Source: Klebsiella pneumoniae (GTDB lineage Bacteria; Pseudomonadota; Gammaproteobacteria; Eutrophobiales; Eutrophobiaceae). Taken from it: 44,467 nucleotides of DNA. The stretch lies in the NCBI GenBank assembly GCA_945870865.1, contig CAMBTO010000007.1, forward strand, positions 1 to 44,467, read 5' to 3'. The notes under the pieces are model-generated. The model had not been told where the DNA came from, did no database searches, and was given only the letters and a program-made list of their open reading frames with translations. Shown piece by piece: positions 1-39,918 of this stretch (positions within the stretch are counted from its first letter, which is position 1; each line of letters starts with the position of its first letter). The position numbers and the translations under genes are program-made.

Positions 1-171
1 ATCGTCAGCTTTACAGTCAACGGGCGCGGCAACAGCAAAATACAGCGAAAATTGATGGATAACAGAGTGATTTGTGCTTACCGCGTCGGGGCCATCCGCT
101 TTTCACCGAACTTTTATACCAGCTTACAAAAGCTTGATAAAGCAATTGAGATATTAAATATATATGTTTAA
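1..171 (+). CDS. Class-V aminotransferase-like protein, C-terminal fragment (partial)
   Basis: An open frame enters from the left edge and stops with TAA at 169-171, giving 56 residues. It contains IRFSPNFYTS followed by a charged helix (LDKAIEIL). The pattern 'variable residues, R-G-x-I-R-F/V-S-P-x-F-Y-N/T, then a D/E-rich helix' is the usual C-terminus of fold-type I, class-V PLP enzymes such as cysteine desulfurase and kynureninase relatives. The substrate cannot be inferred because the PLP-lysine region lies outside the window. It converges on tatD with only 8 bases between the stop codons, and no rho-independent terminator is visible there. The family call rests on a short piece. Confidence 0.6.
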   Translation: MVSFTVNGRGNSKIQRKLMDNRVICAYRVGAIRFSPNFYTSLQKLDKAIEILNIYV

Positions 172-179
172 ATATTATA

Positions 180-956
180 TTAATTTTTAAACAGATTGTA
201 GTAGTTTGTGGTGGTGACTGCCGCGATATGCCCCAGGGTGGTCTCCCGTAACTGTGCCAGATATTCGGCGACATGACGCACATAGGCCGGCTGGTTCTGT
301 TTGCCCCGATAAGGGACCGGGGCCAGATACGGCGAGTCGGTCTCTATTAGCAGGCTGGACTCCGGTAACTGCCGTGCCACCTGTTGCAAGGCGGTTGCAC
401 TTTTAAAGGTGACGATACCGGAAAACGAGATGGCAAAGTTCAGGTCTATCGAGCGCAGCGCAGTATCCATGTCTTCGACAAAACAATGCATGACCCCGCC
501 GACCTCGTCTGCCCGTTCTTCTTTCAGGATGCGCAGCACGTCCTCCTTCGCCTCACGGCAATGGATAATCAGCGGCTTACCCACCGATCGGGCCGCCTGG
601 ATATGACGACGGAAGCGCTCGCGCTGCCAGTCCAAATCCCCCTCGCTGCGAAAATAATCGAGGCCGGTCTCACCAATGGCCACCACCCGGGGATCGCTCC
701 CATGGTGGATCAACTGATCGACCGTGATTTCTTCGGCCATCGCCGTGTTCGGGTGGACCCCGACCGAGGCGGAGATACAGTCATGTTGTCCGGCAAGTTC
801 GAGCAAGGCCGGATAGGAGTCCATGTCTATCGAGACACACAGCATCTTTTCGATGCCCTGTTGCCTCGCGGCCTCAATGATCGCAGACGCACCGCCCTCC
901 ATCTCGATCATCGGGATATGGCAATGGGAATCAACGAGGGAAACAGGTGTGCTCAT
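180..956 (-). CDS. tatD: TatD family metal-dependent deoxyribonuclease
   Basis: 258 residues, full length for TatD/YcfH-type hydrolases. These are TIM-barrel metal-dependent nucleases of the cytoplasm, with 3'-5' DNase activity reported for E. coli TatD. Metal ligands are visible in order: HCH at 11-13, E96 in GETGLDY, H132 in IIHCRE, H157 in MHCF, and D207 in ETDSPYLAPVP. The ATG at 956 follows an AGGA about nine bases upstream. It is the last gene of the fab-mltG-tmk-holB-pilZ series, 65 bases after pilZ, which is the position it holds in many gammaproteobacteria. Confidence 0.95.
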   Translation of the reverse strand: MSTPVSLVDSHCHIPMIEMEGGASAIIEAARQQGIEKMLCVSIDMDSYPALLELAGQHDCISASVGVHPNTAMAEEITVDQLIHHGSDPRVVAIGETGLDYFRSEGDLDWQRERFRRHIQAARSVGKPLIIHCREAKEDVLRILKEERADEVGGVMHCFVEDMDTALRSIDLNFAISFSGIVTFKSATALQQVARQLPESSLLIETDSPYLAPVPYRGKQNQPAYVRHVAEYLAQLRETTLGHIAAVTTTNYYNLFKN

Positions 957-1021
957 GCGGATAAATCCTGATAAGAACCCGGTAATACCTGCCGGGGGCG
1001 ACTAAAACGGTATGGTGTGAC

Positions 1022-1375
1022 TCAGATCGTCTGGGTCGGGCGGTCAGACGACAGCGCATCGGCCAGCTGGTTCTCGATCTTGCTCGCACCCTTGTCCAGT
1101 TCGCTAAACTGTACGGCGATGCCGGCAGTCTTGTTGCTTTGTGCGCCCTTCGGGGTTATCCGGACGACACGGCCAGCGGCCGGCAGTTTTTCCTTGCTGT
1201 CCATCAGCTTCAGCAACATAAACACCTCATCGCCGAGTTTGTACGGCTTGGCCGTAGGGATAAACAGGCCGCCGTTCTTGATAAACGGCATGTAAGAGGC
1301 ATACAGCGCACTCTTGTCGCGTATGGTCAGTGACAGGATGCCCTGCCTGGGGTCACGTCCGCCGACTGCACTCAC
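1022..1375 (-). CDS. pilZ: PilZ domain protein (type IV pilus PilZ type)
   Basis: 117 residues, one PilZ domain. The position after holB and the length match the type IV pilus protein PilZ of Pseudomonas and Xanthomonas, which is needed for pilus assembly. That branch usually lacks the N-terminal RxxxR c-di-GMP motif, and no clear RxxxR plus D/NxSxxG pair is seen here, so c-di-GMP binding should not be assumed. Start is GTG at 1375. The GTGA tetranucleotide overlaps the holB stop, implying translational coupling. Confidence 0.87.
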   Translation of the reverse strand: MSAVGGRDPRQGILSLTIRDKSALYASYMPFIKNGGLFIPTAKPYKLGDEVFMLLKLMDSKEKLPAAGRVVRITPKGAQSNKTAGIAVQFSELDKGASKIENQLADALSSDRPTQTI

Positions 1376-2382
1376 GCCTTTCTACCTCCGTTGTTACCAT
1401 TGATAGACTGCCAATATACAATAAATTGCTCAAGCAGACCTGTCTGATTCAGATTATATGGCCCGGTGATGTAACGGTAGTTCTGTATGGCCAGATCATA
1501 ACCGCCGAGCAATGCCCGCAAGTCTAATCGATTTGCCAACCGTTGCAAATCCCGGTTCAATGGCGAGCTGCCATCGGCCGGGGCCACACCTACAAGCTTC
1601 AGTCGAGTCATTGTCGCCAGAAACGCCCTTAACCAGGCAAACACATTGCCCGCACCGAGATCCTGCCAACGGTGGGCGAGTGCACTGACATCGGTATTCG
1701 CGTAATCAAGCCGGGCCAGTTCTGCCAGCAATTGCTGTTGCTGCTGGATGGTATTGTTCTCCGTCATTGCTATCGCCTCCAGCGGACGACCCCGTGACAA
1801 TAACAGCGTATCGGCCGCGACCGTGCGCGCCATGCCGGTCCGCGACTCCAGCCAGTCGACAGCGGCCTCATCATACACCGGGGCAAAATCCAGGCGCTGG
1901 CAACGGCTGCGCACCGTGACTGGCAACAGCGCCGGTTGATGGGAGATTAACAGGAACACTGATCCGGCCGGTGGCTCTTCCAGTATCTTTAACAATGAAT
2001 TGGCAGAGCTGCGGTTCATCGCCTCGGCCGGGTCAATAATCGCAATCTTGCCACGGGCATACTGGCTGCTCAATTGTATGAAATGGATCAACTCACGAAT
2101 GGCGTCGACCTTGATTTGCTTGCCAGCCTCTTCCGGCTCTATCCGGCTGATATCCGGATGGTTGCCCGAGTCAAACAACTGACAGGAACGGCACAGCCCA
2201 CAGGCATAACCATCAATCGGTGCAGCACACAACCATTTGGCCGCGAGATTACTGGCAAACTGCTCGAGCCCCAGACCCATTGGGCCCGCCAGTAACAGCG
2301 CATGGGGCAGTCGGCCACGTTCAAACGCCTCGGCCAGCCGCGACCACTGCCTGTGTTGCCAGGGATAGACCGGCTGGCTCAA
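1372..2382 (-). CDS. holB: DNA polymerase III subunit delta'
   Basis: 336 residues, full length for delta', a structural subunit of the clamp loader that places the sliding clamp on DNA. The N-terminal AAA+ module has a degenerate Walker A (GPMGLGLEQ, 33-41, no Lys-Ser/Thr), as expected because delta' does not hydrolyse ATP. A four-cysteine zinc module follows (C52, C61, C64, C67). The SRC motif supplied to the neighbouring ATP site is seen in VRSRCQR. Start is TTG at 2382 inside a TTGA overlap with the tmk stop, so initiation is probably coupled to tmk translation. Confidence 0.95.
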   Translation of the reverse strand: MSQPVYPWQHRQWSRLAEAFERGRLPHALLLAGPMGLGLEQFASNLAAKWLCAAPIDGYACGLCRSCQLFDSGNHPDISRIEPEEAGKQIKVDAIRELIHFIQLSSQYARGKIAIIDPAEAMNRSSANSLLKILEEPPAGSVFLLISHQPALLPVTVRSRCQRLDFAPVYDEAAVDWLESRTGMARTVAADTLLLSRGRPLEAIAMTENNTIQQQQQLLAELARLDYANTDVSALAHRWQDLGAGNVFAWLRAFLATMTRLKLVGVAPADGSSPLNRDLQRLANRLDLRALLGGYDLAIQNYRYITGPYNLNQTGLLEQFIVYWQSINGNNGGRKA

Positions 2383-2999
2383 CGCAAAGTCTCCAGGATT
2401 CCCGCTATCTGCTGCTCCACAGCAACCAGCGTCTGTTCCGCATCAATGATCCGGAACCGCTGTGGCTGCTCGCGGGCGCGATCCAGATAGGTCTGCCGTA
2501 CCCGTTCAAAAAAACTGACTGTCTCGGCCTCAAACCGATCGGCCTCACCGCGCTTTTTTGCCCGCGACAGGCCGGTCTGTACTGAGGCATCAAACAATAA
2601 CGTAACGTTCGGTTGCAGCTGCTGTTGTACCAGCGTCTCCAGCACGCCGATTTCCGCCATCGACAGGCCACGACCACCGCCCTGATAAGCATAGGTCGCA
2701 TCGGTGAAACGATCACACAATATATACTGACCCTTCGCCAGTGCCGGCCGGACGACTTCCTGTAAATGCTGTGCTCGGGCGGCGAACATCAGCAGCAATT
2801 CTGCCATCGAATCGATCTGCATGTCCTTGCCATGCAACAGGATCTCCCGTATCGCTTCACCCGCCCGGGTACCGCCCGGCTCACGGGTGAGGATGACCGT
2901 GTGCCCCTGTTGCTGCAAACGGTCGGCGATAAACGCGAGATGGGTCGTCTTGCCCACGCCCTCGATTCCTTCCAGTGTAATAAACTTGCCCGCTGTCAT
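2379..2999 (-). CDS. tmk: Thymidylate kinase
   Basis: 206 residues. Phosphorylates dTMP to dTDP in dTTP synthesis. Visible motifs are the P-loop GIEGVGKTT (11-19), the dTMP-binding TREPGGT segment, DRFTDATYAYQGGGRG, and a LID-like RAKKRGEADRFE. Full length for the bacterial enzyme. The ATG at 2999 overlaps the mltG stop (ATGA), and its stop overlaps the holB start (TTGA), so mltG, tmk and holB look co-translated. Confidence 0.97.
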   Translation of the reverse strand: MTAGKFITLEGIEGVGKTTHLAFIADRLQQQGHTVILTREPGGTRAGEAIREILLHGKDMQIDSMAELLLMFAARAQHLQEVVRPALAKGQYILCDRFTDATYAYQGGGRGLSMAEIGVLETLVQQQLQPNVTLLFDASVQTGLSRAKKRGEADRFEAETVSFFERVRQTYLDRAREQPQRFRIIDAEQTLVAVEQQIAGILETLR

Positions 3000-4021
3000 G
3001 GTGTTTCCTGTGTATTGGCCCGCGAGAGCTGGTATAGCCTGACCGCGCGGTTATGTTCTTTCAGCGTCGCCGAGAACTGGTGTGTACCGTCTCCTTTGGC
3101 AACGAAATAGATCTGCTCACCGGCAGCCGGCTGCAAGGCAGCACGGATCGCGTCCCGGCCCGGCGCGGCGATGGGCGTCGGTGGCAAGCCGGAATACACA
3201 TAGGTATTAAACGGCGAGTCCAGATACAGATCCTGTTTGCGGATATTACCATTATACGCGCTGCCCATCGCATAGATAACGGTCGGATCGGTCTGCAGCT
3301 TCATCCCCTGTTGCAAGCGGCGAACGAACACCCCAGCAATGCGGTCACGCTCGGACGGCTCGGCCGTTTCCTTCTCGATGATCGAGGCCATGATCAGTGC
3401 TTCATAAGCGATAGTGTACGGCAGCCCGATCTGACGCTGCTCCCACTCCTCGGCCAGTACCTGCTGCATCAAATCAAACGCGCGGCGGAAAAAATCGATA
3501 TCCGTCGTCCCGCGCGGGAAATGATAGGTATCCGGATAAAACTGCCCTTCCGGACTGGTCTTCAAATAATCCATCTGTTTTGCAATGACGGCAGGATCGT
3601 TATCCTGCAACGTATGTATCAGCGCCGGATGCGCCATGACCAGACCGACAATGTCCCGGAACGTCAACCCTTCCGGTATCGTCAACGTATATTGCACTAC
3701 CCTGCCCGCGATCAACTGGTCGAGCAGTTGCAACTGCGTTGTGCCCGGCGCTATCTCATATTCACCCGCCTTGATCAGACGCGCCTTTTTATACCATCGC
3801 GCATCCAGCGTGAGGTAATAGGAATGATTGATCCAGCCCTGCTGCACCAGCATCGAGGCGATGCTGGAAAAACTCATACCCTGATTGATCGTCATACGGA
3901 CTGGCTCATCAACATTCATTGGCCGGTTCAGTTCGGCTTGCATGTCCGTATACAACCAATAGAAACACAGCGACACCGATACAATAAACGCCGAGAAAAA
4001 CGCCTTCAGGTTTCTGCTCAT
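2996..4021 (-). CDS. mltG: Endolytic murein transglycosylase MltG
   Basis: 341 residues. An inner-membrane lytic transglycosylase that cuts nascent glycan strands and is thought to set strand ends (YceG family). One N-terminal membrane segment (about 9-24) is followed by a periplasmic LysM-like region and the catalytic domain, with the conserved IIEKET around 215-219 and LQTDPTVIYAM around 242-252. In related genomes pabC lies directly upstream; here the upstream neighbour is a broken cupin gene and about 237 bases of non-coding sequence. Stop overlaps the tmk start. Confidence 0.95.
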   Translation of the reverse strand: MSRNLKAFFSAFIVSVSLCFYWLYTDMQAELNRPMNVDEPVRMTINQGMSFSSIASMLVQQGWINHSYYLTLDARWYKKARLIKAGEYEIAPGTTQLQLLDQLIAGRVVQYTLTIPEGLTFRDIVGLVMAHPALIHTLQDNDPAVIAKQMDYLKTSPEGQFYPDTYHFPRGTTDIDFFRRAFDLMQQVLAEEWEQRQIGLPYTIAYEALIMASIIEKETAEPSERDRIAGVFVRRLQQGMKLQTDPTVIYAMGSAYNGNIRKQDLYLDSPFNTYVYSGLPPTPIAAPGRDAIRAALQPAAGEQIYFVAKGDGTHQFSATLKEHNRAVRLYQLSRANTQETP

Positions 4022-4258
4022 AATACAATTATTAGACTATTCATATCAGCCCCGGCAAATGCACTGGAGATTGCTAGTTAGTAATGGCTGGATTATAGCG
4101 GATAAAAACAAGCGAGGGCTGTCCACCTGGAATAAGTCCGGACTGCATTACTCCGAAAGCCCCTGATGTCGTGTTTGCAGATGACCTTCATAGAGGATTG
4201 TATATATAGACTCTTTGCGGGGGCAGGCTCGCTGCCCTGCGTGATTAGGCTCGCCTGT
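4022..4258. other. Non-coding gap between the broken cupin gene and mltG
   Basis: 237 bases with no gene I can support. There is a small perfect 6-bp hairpin (GGGCAG/CTGCCC at 4221-4237) without a T-tract on either strand. No trace of an intact or partial pabC was recognised in this stretch. Confidence 0.5.
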
Positions 4259-4604
4259 TTATAATTGCGATCCAAAAGACGCGAGCACGGTCAAATCTTC
4301 CTTGATATCAAAAAACGTATGTGGTGTGTTGGCGGCGACGAAAAGGATGGCGCCTTTGCTTGCTTCCTGCTTCCTGCTCCTTGCCATTGACCATAAGCGT
4401 AGCCTTGCTTTCAACGACGAGGTATATCTCATCTTCAAGATGCGGGGATTGCATGACTTTTGCACCCTTGGGCAGGCGGTAGAAGGCCATGCTCATTGAA
4501 CGTACATGCAGGAATTCATGACACCGTGGATCATTGCCTTCCACTTTTTTCACTATTTCATCAAGGTGAAACTGTTGCCAACCGTCCTGGGTTTGTTTAC
4601 TCAT
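4259..4604 (-). pseudogene. Small cupin-domain protein, frameshifted by a 7-bp tandem duplication
   Basis: The 5' part (from ATG 4604, good GGGAG ribosome site) encodes a cupin start, with H-L-E-D-E-I-Y and V-E-S-K-A-T-L-M-V-N-G in the first metal-binding motif region. Near 4364-4379 the coding strand carries GCAGGAA twice in a row. After it the original frame runs into unrelated residues, while a second frame resumes with the expected A-A-N-T-P-H-T-F-F-D second cupin motif and stops at 4259. Removing one 7-base copy restores a single 112-residue cupin. The biological role is unknown; small mononuclear cupins of this size are diverse. It lies between fabF and mltG, where pabC is normally found. 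A sequencing or assembly error is the alternative to real decay. Confidence 0.8.
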
Positions 4605-4682
4605 TCAGTATATCTCCCGAATAATCATTGAGGCCGGAAGCATGGCAGCATTAAACGATCCTGTTCCAGCAAGACGGAGAAA

Positions 4683-5924
4683 CTAGCGCAGCTTGCTGAA
4701 TATCAACGTCCCATTCGTCCCGCCGAACCCGAACGAGTTAGACAGAGCGATATCTATCTTCATCTGTCGTGCATGGTGAGGGACGTAGTCCAGATCACAG
4801 GCCGGATCCGGATTGTCGAGATTGATGGTGGGCGGGGCGACCTGGTCGCGTATCGCCAGCAGGCAAAATACCGCTTCGATACCGCCGGCCGCGCCGAGCA
4901 GATGGCCGGTCATCGACTTGGTCGAGCTAATCGCCACCTTTTTCGCATCGTCGCCAAACACGCATTTGACGGCGTTGTTCTCGACCACATCGCCTGCCGG
5001 GGTTGATGTGCCGTGTGCATTGATGTAATCGATGGTGGATTTGTCTATGTGTGCATTACGCAGTGCGTTCAGCATACTGTGGGTGGCACCGGAGCCGTCT
5101 TCCGACGGGGCGGTCATGTGGTAGGCGTCTCCGCTCATGCCGTAGCCGATCAACTCACCGTAGATATGAGCACCACGTTGCTTCGCATGTTCGAGCTCTT
5201 CCAGTACCATCACACCGGCACCGTCGCTGAGCACAAAACCATCACGGTCACGGTCCCAGGGTCGGCTGGCACGCTCGGGCTCATCGTTACGGGTGGATAA
5301 TGCCCTGGCATTCGCAAAACCGGCAAGGCCCGTCGGCGAGGTCGCCATCTCGGCACCCCCGGCGACCATCACATCGGCATCACCGTATTCGATCAGACGC
5401 GCAGCATCACCGATATTATGCGTACCGGTCGTGCAAGCGGTGACGATGGCAAAGTTGGGTCCCTTCGCTCCGATACGGATCGACAGGTTGCCCGAGATCA
5501 TATTGATAATATTACTCGGCACGTAGAACGGCGAGATCTTGCGCGGGCCACCTTCTTGCAGGATCAGCGTGCCCTTCTCTATGCCGGGCAGTCCGCCGAT
5601 ACCGGAACCGATTGCCACACCGATCCGATGGGCGTTCTCTTCATTCACAACGAGACCGGAGTCCTCAAATGCCTGGATACCGGCTGCCATGCCGTAATGG
5701 ATGAACGGGTCCATCTTTTTGACATCCTTTTTCGGGATGTAATCCTCGACATTAAAGTCGCGGATGGAACCACCTATCTGGACCGGAAAATCCGTCGTAT
5801 CAAAATGGGTAATACGGCCGATACCGCTCTTCCCGGCCAGGATATTACTCCAGGTATCAATAACATTATTTCCCAGCGGGGTAATCACACCCAGTCCGCT
5901 CACGACCACACGGCGTTTATGCAC
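4683..5924 (-). CDS. fabF: 3-oxoacyl-ACP synthase II (KAS II)
   Basis: 413 residues, full length. Elongates acyl-ACP with malonyl-ACP and governs the C16:1 to C18:1 step. The Cys-His-His triad is intact: C164 in VTACTTG, H304 in [12 protein letters not shown]341 in [10 protein letters not shown], plus K336. It follows acpP in the usual order, separated by a terminator-like hairpin (5951-5983) that should lower its expression relative to acpP. Confidence 0.98.
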
Positions 5925-31218: not shown

Positions 31219-34015
<2,797 letters not shown>

Positions 34016-39003: not shown

Positions 39004-39918
39004 ATGGTTGCTAAAAAGAAAGGCAGTAAAAAGTCGGTAACGAAGAAGAGGCCCGTAGTCAAGACGGTCTTTAAAAAAGCGGCAAAAAGGAAACCGGTCA
39101 AGGCGAAAGCCGCTGCAAAGCCGGTAAAACAGGCGACAAAAAAGAAACCTGTTAAACAGCAGGTCGTAGCCAAACAGGTGGCGAAAAAACAGAAGCCCGC
39201 CAAAAAGGCCATTGCCGTTAAAAAAGCACCCGCCAAATCGGTTGCGAAGAAAAAGGCACCTGTAAAGAAAAAGGCACCTGTAAAGAAAAAGGCACCTTTA
39301 AAGAAAGCAGCTCCCGCCAAACCGGCAATCAAACCTACAATCAAAAAGAAACCAGTCGTCAAGAAGGCAGCGGCCCCGGCCAAACCGGTCGTCGTAGCAG
39401 CTGCCCCGAAAAAGACCGCCAGGGTCGAGAAAAAACCCGCAACTCCGGTTAAATCCGGTAAGGCCCAAATCCAGGAAATGAAGAACAAGGTATTCCGACG
39501 CTCACCCACTGACGTACAATCGTTCCAGCCCTATCGCACTAAACATGGCGAGGAATATATGAATACGCCACAACGCGAACACTTCCGCAATATCCTGATG
39601 GACTGGAAAAAAGTCCTGATGCAGGAAGTTGACCGCACCGTGAATCACATGCAGGACGAGGCCGCCAACTTCCCGGATCCAAACGATCGCGCCACCCAGG
39701 AAGAAGAGTTTGCTCTGGAGTTAAGGACCCGTGACCGCGAGCGCAAGCTGATCCGCAAGATCGACGAAGCTGTGATAAGTCTGGAGACGGGTGATTATGG
39801 TTACTGCGAGGTATGCGGTGTCGAGATCGGGGTCAAGCGTCTGGAGGCAAGACCAACTGCGACTTTGTGTATCGACTGCAAGACACTCGACGAAATCAAG
39901 GAAAAACAACTGGGATAA
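39004..39918 (+). CDS. dksA: DksA with a 155-residue Lys/Ala/Pro-rich N-terminal tail
   Basis: 304 residues from ATG 39004, about twice the usual 150. Residues 180-304 are a complete DksA: coiled-coil with the acidic tip DPNDRA (225-230) that reaches the polymerase active site, and the zinc finger C268, C271, C289, C292. DksA works with ppGpp to tune rRNA and amino-acid promoters. Residues 1-155 are almost only Lys, Ala, Pro and Val in KKxAPxK-like repeats, resembling histone H1 tails or Pseudomonas AlgP, and should bind nucleic acid. Three near-identical copies of an 18-base unit lie at 39247-39300. The tail is in frame with no second start of the usual DksA type between the parts (the Met at 159 would still yield a whole DksA). 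gluQ, the usual next gene, is broken. Confidence 0.93.
39247..39300 (+). repeat. Three tandem 18-bp units inside the dksA tail
   Basis: AAGAAAAAGGCACCTGTA at 39247-39264 and 39265-39282, and a one-mismatch copy at 39283-39300, each coding for KKKAPV or KKKAPL. The unit is a multiple of three, so gain or loss would change tail length without breaking the frame. Confidence 0.9.

Follow-up and report, generated by a model that had tools for sequence, protein, structure and literature searches.

The 44,467-bp stretch of DNA analysed in this study, referred to as the window, contains a small single-domain cupin gene (positions 4259-4604, minus strand) that is broken by a 7-bp tandem duplication, so that its 112 codons are distributed over two reading frames. 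This observation, already made in the first-pass annotation, was confirmed by the repeat itself, by the match of a family profile in both frames, and by a surplus of exactly 7 nt. The locus is likely to represent an accessory cupin gene, probably acquired horizontally, that was inactivated by one slippage event.

A direct scan of the minus strand found GCAGGAAGCAGGAA at positions 4377-4364. The claimed tandem pair of GCAGGAA units is thus real, and its exact span replaces the range of about 4364-4379 given before. The pair is part of a longer perfect period-7 run, AGCAGGAAGCAGGAAGCA, which was delimited by TRF and direct scan, covers 18 bp of the coding strand from position 4378 to 4361 (4361-4378, minus strand), and amounts to 2.6 copies of the unit. 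In the whole genome (2.17 Mb), this exact array occurs at one site only. Two-copy 7-mers by themselves are ordinary in a sequence of this size, as the window contains four of them and 100 order-2 Markov sequences had a mean of 2.5. The 18-bp run at lag 7, however, exceeds the chance expectation: one lag-7 match run of at least 11 was observed, whereas 300 simulated windows averaged 0.017. For all frame-changing lags from 4 to 20 pooled, 0.16 runs of at least 11 would be expected (300 simulations). The window also has one run of at least 11 at lag 15 and one at lag 18.

The consequences for the reading frame are apparent from a comparison with a profile of 13 relatives. Two parts of the profile are matched at the locus, 3-78 by frame 0 (92.7 bits) and 65-108 by frame 1 (39.5 bits), and the two matching frames meet at the period-7 run, which is the site of the frame change. 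The in-frame pieces, comprising 79 codons and 33 codons plus the stop, account for 339 of the 346 nt, and 7 nt are left over. In the family alignment, the residues E-A of the first piece and S-K-G of the second piece occupy consecutive columns, and the G of S-K-G falls on an invariant glycine of the family. Because the pieces join without a gap in this alignment, the count of 112 residues is correct, and the removal of one copy would restore a cupin of that length as first proposed. In its present state, the gene has a 98-aa open frame (4308-4604, minus strand) with family residues up to about residue 79, followed by 19 aberrant residues, and this frame lacks the second cupin motif. The out-of-frame remainder of 33 codons plus stop (4259-4360, minus strand) still matches the family and retains the motif-2 histidine. 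Hence, no single reading frame of the window contains both cupin motifs, and relative to its intact homologues the gene carries a frame-breaking lesion of the kind expected in a pseudogene. Beyond the duplication, no further stops or frameshifts were found in either piece of the cupin locus. The reported intact start and ribosome site were recovered as well: the ATG is present and is preceded, at a distance of 9 nt, by a GGGAG (4614-4618, minus strand) that may function as ribosome-binding site. A terminator-like hairpin with a T tail is located downstream of the cupin (4109-4129, minus strand; one found vs. 0.6 expected by chance). An RNA element was also considered as a candidate and rejected, as Rfam returned no matches with E ≤ 1 across positions 3900-4800.

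The two pieces were assigned to the cupin family through the profile of relatives. All four relatives tested exceed the Pfam cut-off for Cupin_2 (PF07883; 31.4-42.6 bits vs. 27.2), which corroborates the cupin identity. The N-terminal piece and the 68-aa downstream frame of the window, each searched singly, had no Cupin_2 match. The NCBIfam matches of four relatives were all far under the cut-off, and a sequence search of solved structures retrieved weak matches alone (best 4mv2, E 0.00031). The predicted structure of one relative, L002 (pLDDT 86.6), has the double-stranded beta-barrel fold of cupins. A Foldseek search with this model yielded 444 matches at E ≤ 0.001, the best solved structure being 1v70 (E 3.4e-07). 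Strands 81-84 and 91-106 of the model, along with the motif-2 histidine, fall past the frame-change point. The His/Glu/His positions are kept across the two window pieces, and the place that we take to be that of the first motif-1 histidine is occupied by alanine in the close relatives and by serine in the window copy. We know of no function for this subgroup of cupins. The intact relatives thus share fold and family with Cupin_2 proteins and with the structural neighbours 1v70 and 2gu9, whereas the window copy differs in being broken.

Altogether 17 cupin relatives were gathered from public genomes. The profile alignment, A1, consists of 13 of these, with L011 and L013 entered from an inner ATG. 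It omits L003 and L005, whose long N-termini are uncertain, L014, which is nearly identical to L013, and the short L018. Comparison with these related genomes set the window copy apart as the only one in two frames: 16 of the 17 relatives are in a single frame that extends from profile position 1-2 to 109-112, close to the full profile, and have no second-frame match. The remaining relative, L018 (an uncultured Chromatiales record, 1242-1526 and downstream), also keeps to one frame but is interrupted by an in-frame stop within the motif-2 region and has a degraded end. L018 is thus broken as well, by a lesion of a different type, and the gene therefore looks dispensable. The window copy is 45-55% identical to its close relatives, and a relative nearer than about 55% was not found among those collected. 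With the nearest relative this distant, the event cannot be dated, and a one-copy allele of the same gene was not encountered. In the neighbourhoods of 11 of the 17 relatives, inspected by eye, neighbouring genes are shared within two pairs, L002 with L007 and L011 with L016. No context was common to all 11 and none resembled that of the window; thus, the neighbourhoods name no function.

The cupin gene lies in a 578-bp segment between fabF and mltG (4104-4681) that cannot be aligned to the nearest species, G001, which has 1859 bp in its place. Both flanks are conserved, G001 being collinear with the window there (1-4103, 90.6% identity; 4682-27808, 91.5% identity). The complete gap between fabF and mltG measures 661 nt in the window (4022-4682), 1937 nt in G001, and 116-134 nt in three other genus mates. 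In G001 it holds a 441-aa GSDH-like gene. The slot is variable within the genus, being occupied by the cupin here and by the GSDH-like gene in G001 but empty in G002-G004 (records compared: window 4022-4682; L049 1656-3592; L050-L052; L053). In G005, a member of another genus, the slot contains a 276-aa gene that is presumably pabC.

None of the four genus mates had a profile match at 1e-3. The profile matched 22 of 116 relatives including this genome, all others at 1e-12 or weaker, and within the order (53 genomes) E ≤ 1e-10 was reached by nothing but this genome and one distant cupin. In the class sample, the N-terminal piece was matched in 2 of 369 genomes, and in the phylum sample the profile was matched at 1e-3 in 23 of 398 (this genome included in both cases). 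A search for relatives on plasmids gave no match, none of 10 viral_contigs stretches with a pattern encoded a relative, and a search for a second genomic copy of the segment found only the segment itself. The GC3 of the cupin gene (0.51-0.53) is low compared to four neighbouring genes (0.65-0.67), which could also result from decay instead of transfer. By its distribution, its position, and its low GC3, the gene looks accessory, and the simplest reading is that it was inserted, probably through transfer, at a site that varies within the genus.

In the proposed scenario, this lineage would have gained a stand-alone cupin gene between fabF and mltG, and the gene would have lost its function thereafter. 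The run has the structure AGCA-GGA-AGCA-GGA-AGCA, and the ancestral one-copy state would have been AGCA-GGA-AGCA, with two AGCA tetramers 3 nt apart. Such a pair is a plausible substrate for strand slippage: if the new strand misaligned between the tetramers during replication, the 7-nt unit would be copied twice. As 7 cannot be divided by 3, the frame is lost. Translation goes out of frame after residue 79 and ends at residue 98, and the product therefore lacks the motif-2 histidine as well as the terminal strands of the barrel. The mutation would be an ordinary loss of function by slippage. That the event is recent, as suggested earlier, is plausible. By analogy with other duplications, a perfect two-copy tandem could in principle collapse again, which would make the event reversible.

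Whether the gene had been under weakened constraint was addressed by a tree and by counts at invariant columns, both based on the 17 relatives and nine more distant cupins. Sixteen close relatives have 37 invariant columns in common (residue present in at least 15 of them), and the window copy deviates at 6 of these, whereas the relatives themselves, each left out in turn, deviate at 0-1 of 31-32. All 26 homologues have 11 invariant columns in common (residue present in at least 22), and the window copy deviates at 2 of these. An aspartate is replaced by valine, and a glycine, which we take to be the last one of cupin motif 1, by serine; each of the two residues is conserved in all 26 homologues. 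Counted in this way, 21 homologues of the 26 deviate nowhere, and the others are L018 (1 of 8), L075, L059, and L060 (each 1 of 10), and L054, a distant homologue (3 of 12). Departures at invariant columns are thus not unique to the window copy. A previous count on A1 had given 8 of 40 for the window copy and 0-4 of 40-44 for the relatives. The earlier statement that the rest of the gene shows no decay holds for stops and frameshifts but not for missense changes, a loss that is hidden when the sequence is viewed alone and is exposed by comparing relatives. The conserved-site missense suggests a real relaxation of constraint, either before the duplication or since. However, the window copy also forms the longest branch (0.49) among the 17 full-length close sequences, its placement in the tree is almost unsupported (0.007), and the excess of missense could reflect a deep lineage rather than decay. 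That neither piece carries another frame-breaking lesion would equally agree with a useful gene that was hit only very recently.

Alternatively, the second copy may be an error of assembly or consensus, and the gene may be intact in the living organism. A single 7-nt event in a genome of 97 contigs would agree with this explanation, which we nevertheless consider improbable. In the comparison with G001, which spans 27.2 of 44.5 kb at about 91% identity, all within positions 1-27808 of the window, 14 indels were counted. Nine of these change the frame, of which seven are intergenic and two affect the last codons of genes that we take to be fabF and rne. Internal indels that change the frame are absent from all 27 genes with full coverage. 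The assembly thus shows no general tendency towards frameshifts, and a poor quality of the assembly is improbable. The missense at conserved sites, which points to a real relaxation, also argues against an error.

A reversible on/off switch, in which the copy number of the 7-mer changes fast and the population keeps both states, is very doubtful. Contingency loci are phase-variable simple sequence repeats, and the cupin array resembles them in having a perfect repeat within the reading frame and a unit length that is not a multiple of 3. It differs in that it has only 2.6 copies and is known in one state, namely the two-copy state of one genome assembly. Neither a multi-copy hypermutable tract nor several tracts of the same unit were found, the array being a single one in the genome. 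The missense at conserved sites and the absence of a frame change from all 16 single-frame relatives also speak against phase variation. It is likewise very improbable that the two-copy heptamer acts as a slow reversible switch of an accessory cupin, retained since either state has its advantage at times. Of the interpretation in the first-pass annotation, the cupin identity, the frame change due to the 7-bp duplication, and the intact start and upstream GGGAG are retained, whereas the absence of decay and the phase-switch-like site find no support. Least credible is ribosomal frameshifting at the run, by which the gene as it stands would still give a certain amount of full-length protein. The downstream frame is open and family-like, but the 7-nt surplus would demand a +1 shift, 16 of the 17 relatives are in a single frame, and the lesion of L018 is a stop instead of a frame change; a programmed frameshift was rejected because the relatives show none.

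Short tandem duplications are known from other organisms. Microhomology-mediated tandem duplications occur in ssp1, presumably a gene of fission yeast. In a fungal review (PMC13207564), the ssp1 duplications are described as reversible and formed between short homologies. They resemble the cupin case in their short homologous arms (4 bp here) and in the premature stop that follows; the cupin case is bacterial, however, and its mechanism is inferred from one sequence. According to another report (PMC13170266), a 12-bp duplication in pilD of Pseudomonas aeruginosa, where the unit changed from one to two copies, reverted in 45% of 100 colonies, and a codon-altered version reverted in none of the colonies tested. 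There, too, a perfect unit is present once before and twice after the event within a gene and its collapse is expected to be possible, but the 7-bp unit of the cupin leads to loss of the frame and is known only from a genome assembly. Such ready collapse of two-copy short duplications would favour a switch, yet the collapsibility of a perfect tandem duplication is not evidence for one. For promoters of Mycobacterium tuberculosis, phase-variable copy numbers of tandem repeats have been reported (PMC12817950), with units of about 55 bp. The cupin locus, which occupies an accessory slot next to conserved fab genes, would be a clear case of a gene inactivated by slippage and caught ahead of any additional frame-breaking decay, and it cautions that a single clean lesion does not demonstrate a switch. 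If cells with one and two copies coexisted, the site would provide a simple natural assay of the rate at which short duplications collapse.

Other tandem repeats are also present in the window. At positions 39247-39306, TRF detected an 18-bp unit in 3.3 copies (97% match). It encodes a portion of the N-terminal region, rich in Lys, Ala, and Pro, of a 309-aa DksA-like protein with Pfam matches from residue 195 onwards. This repeat is in frame and thus possibly variable in length. An imperfect 15-bp tandem repeat (31771-31805, TRF) lies within a gene for a 671-aa protein, which we take to be ligA-like.
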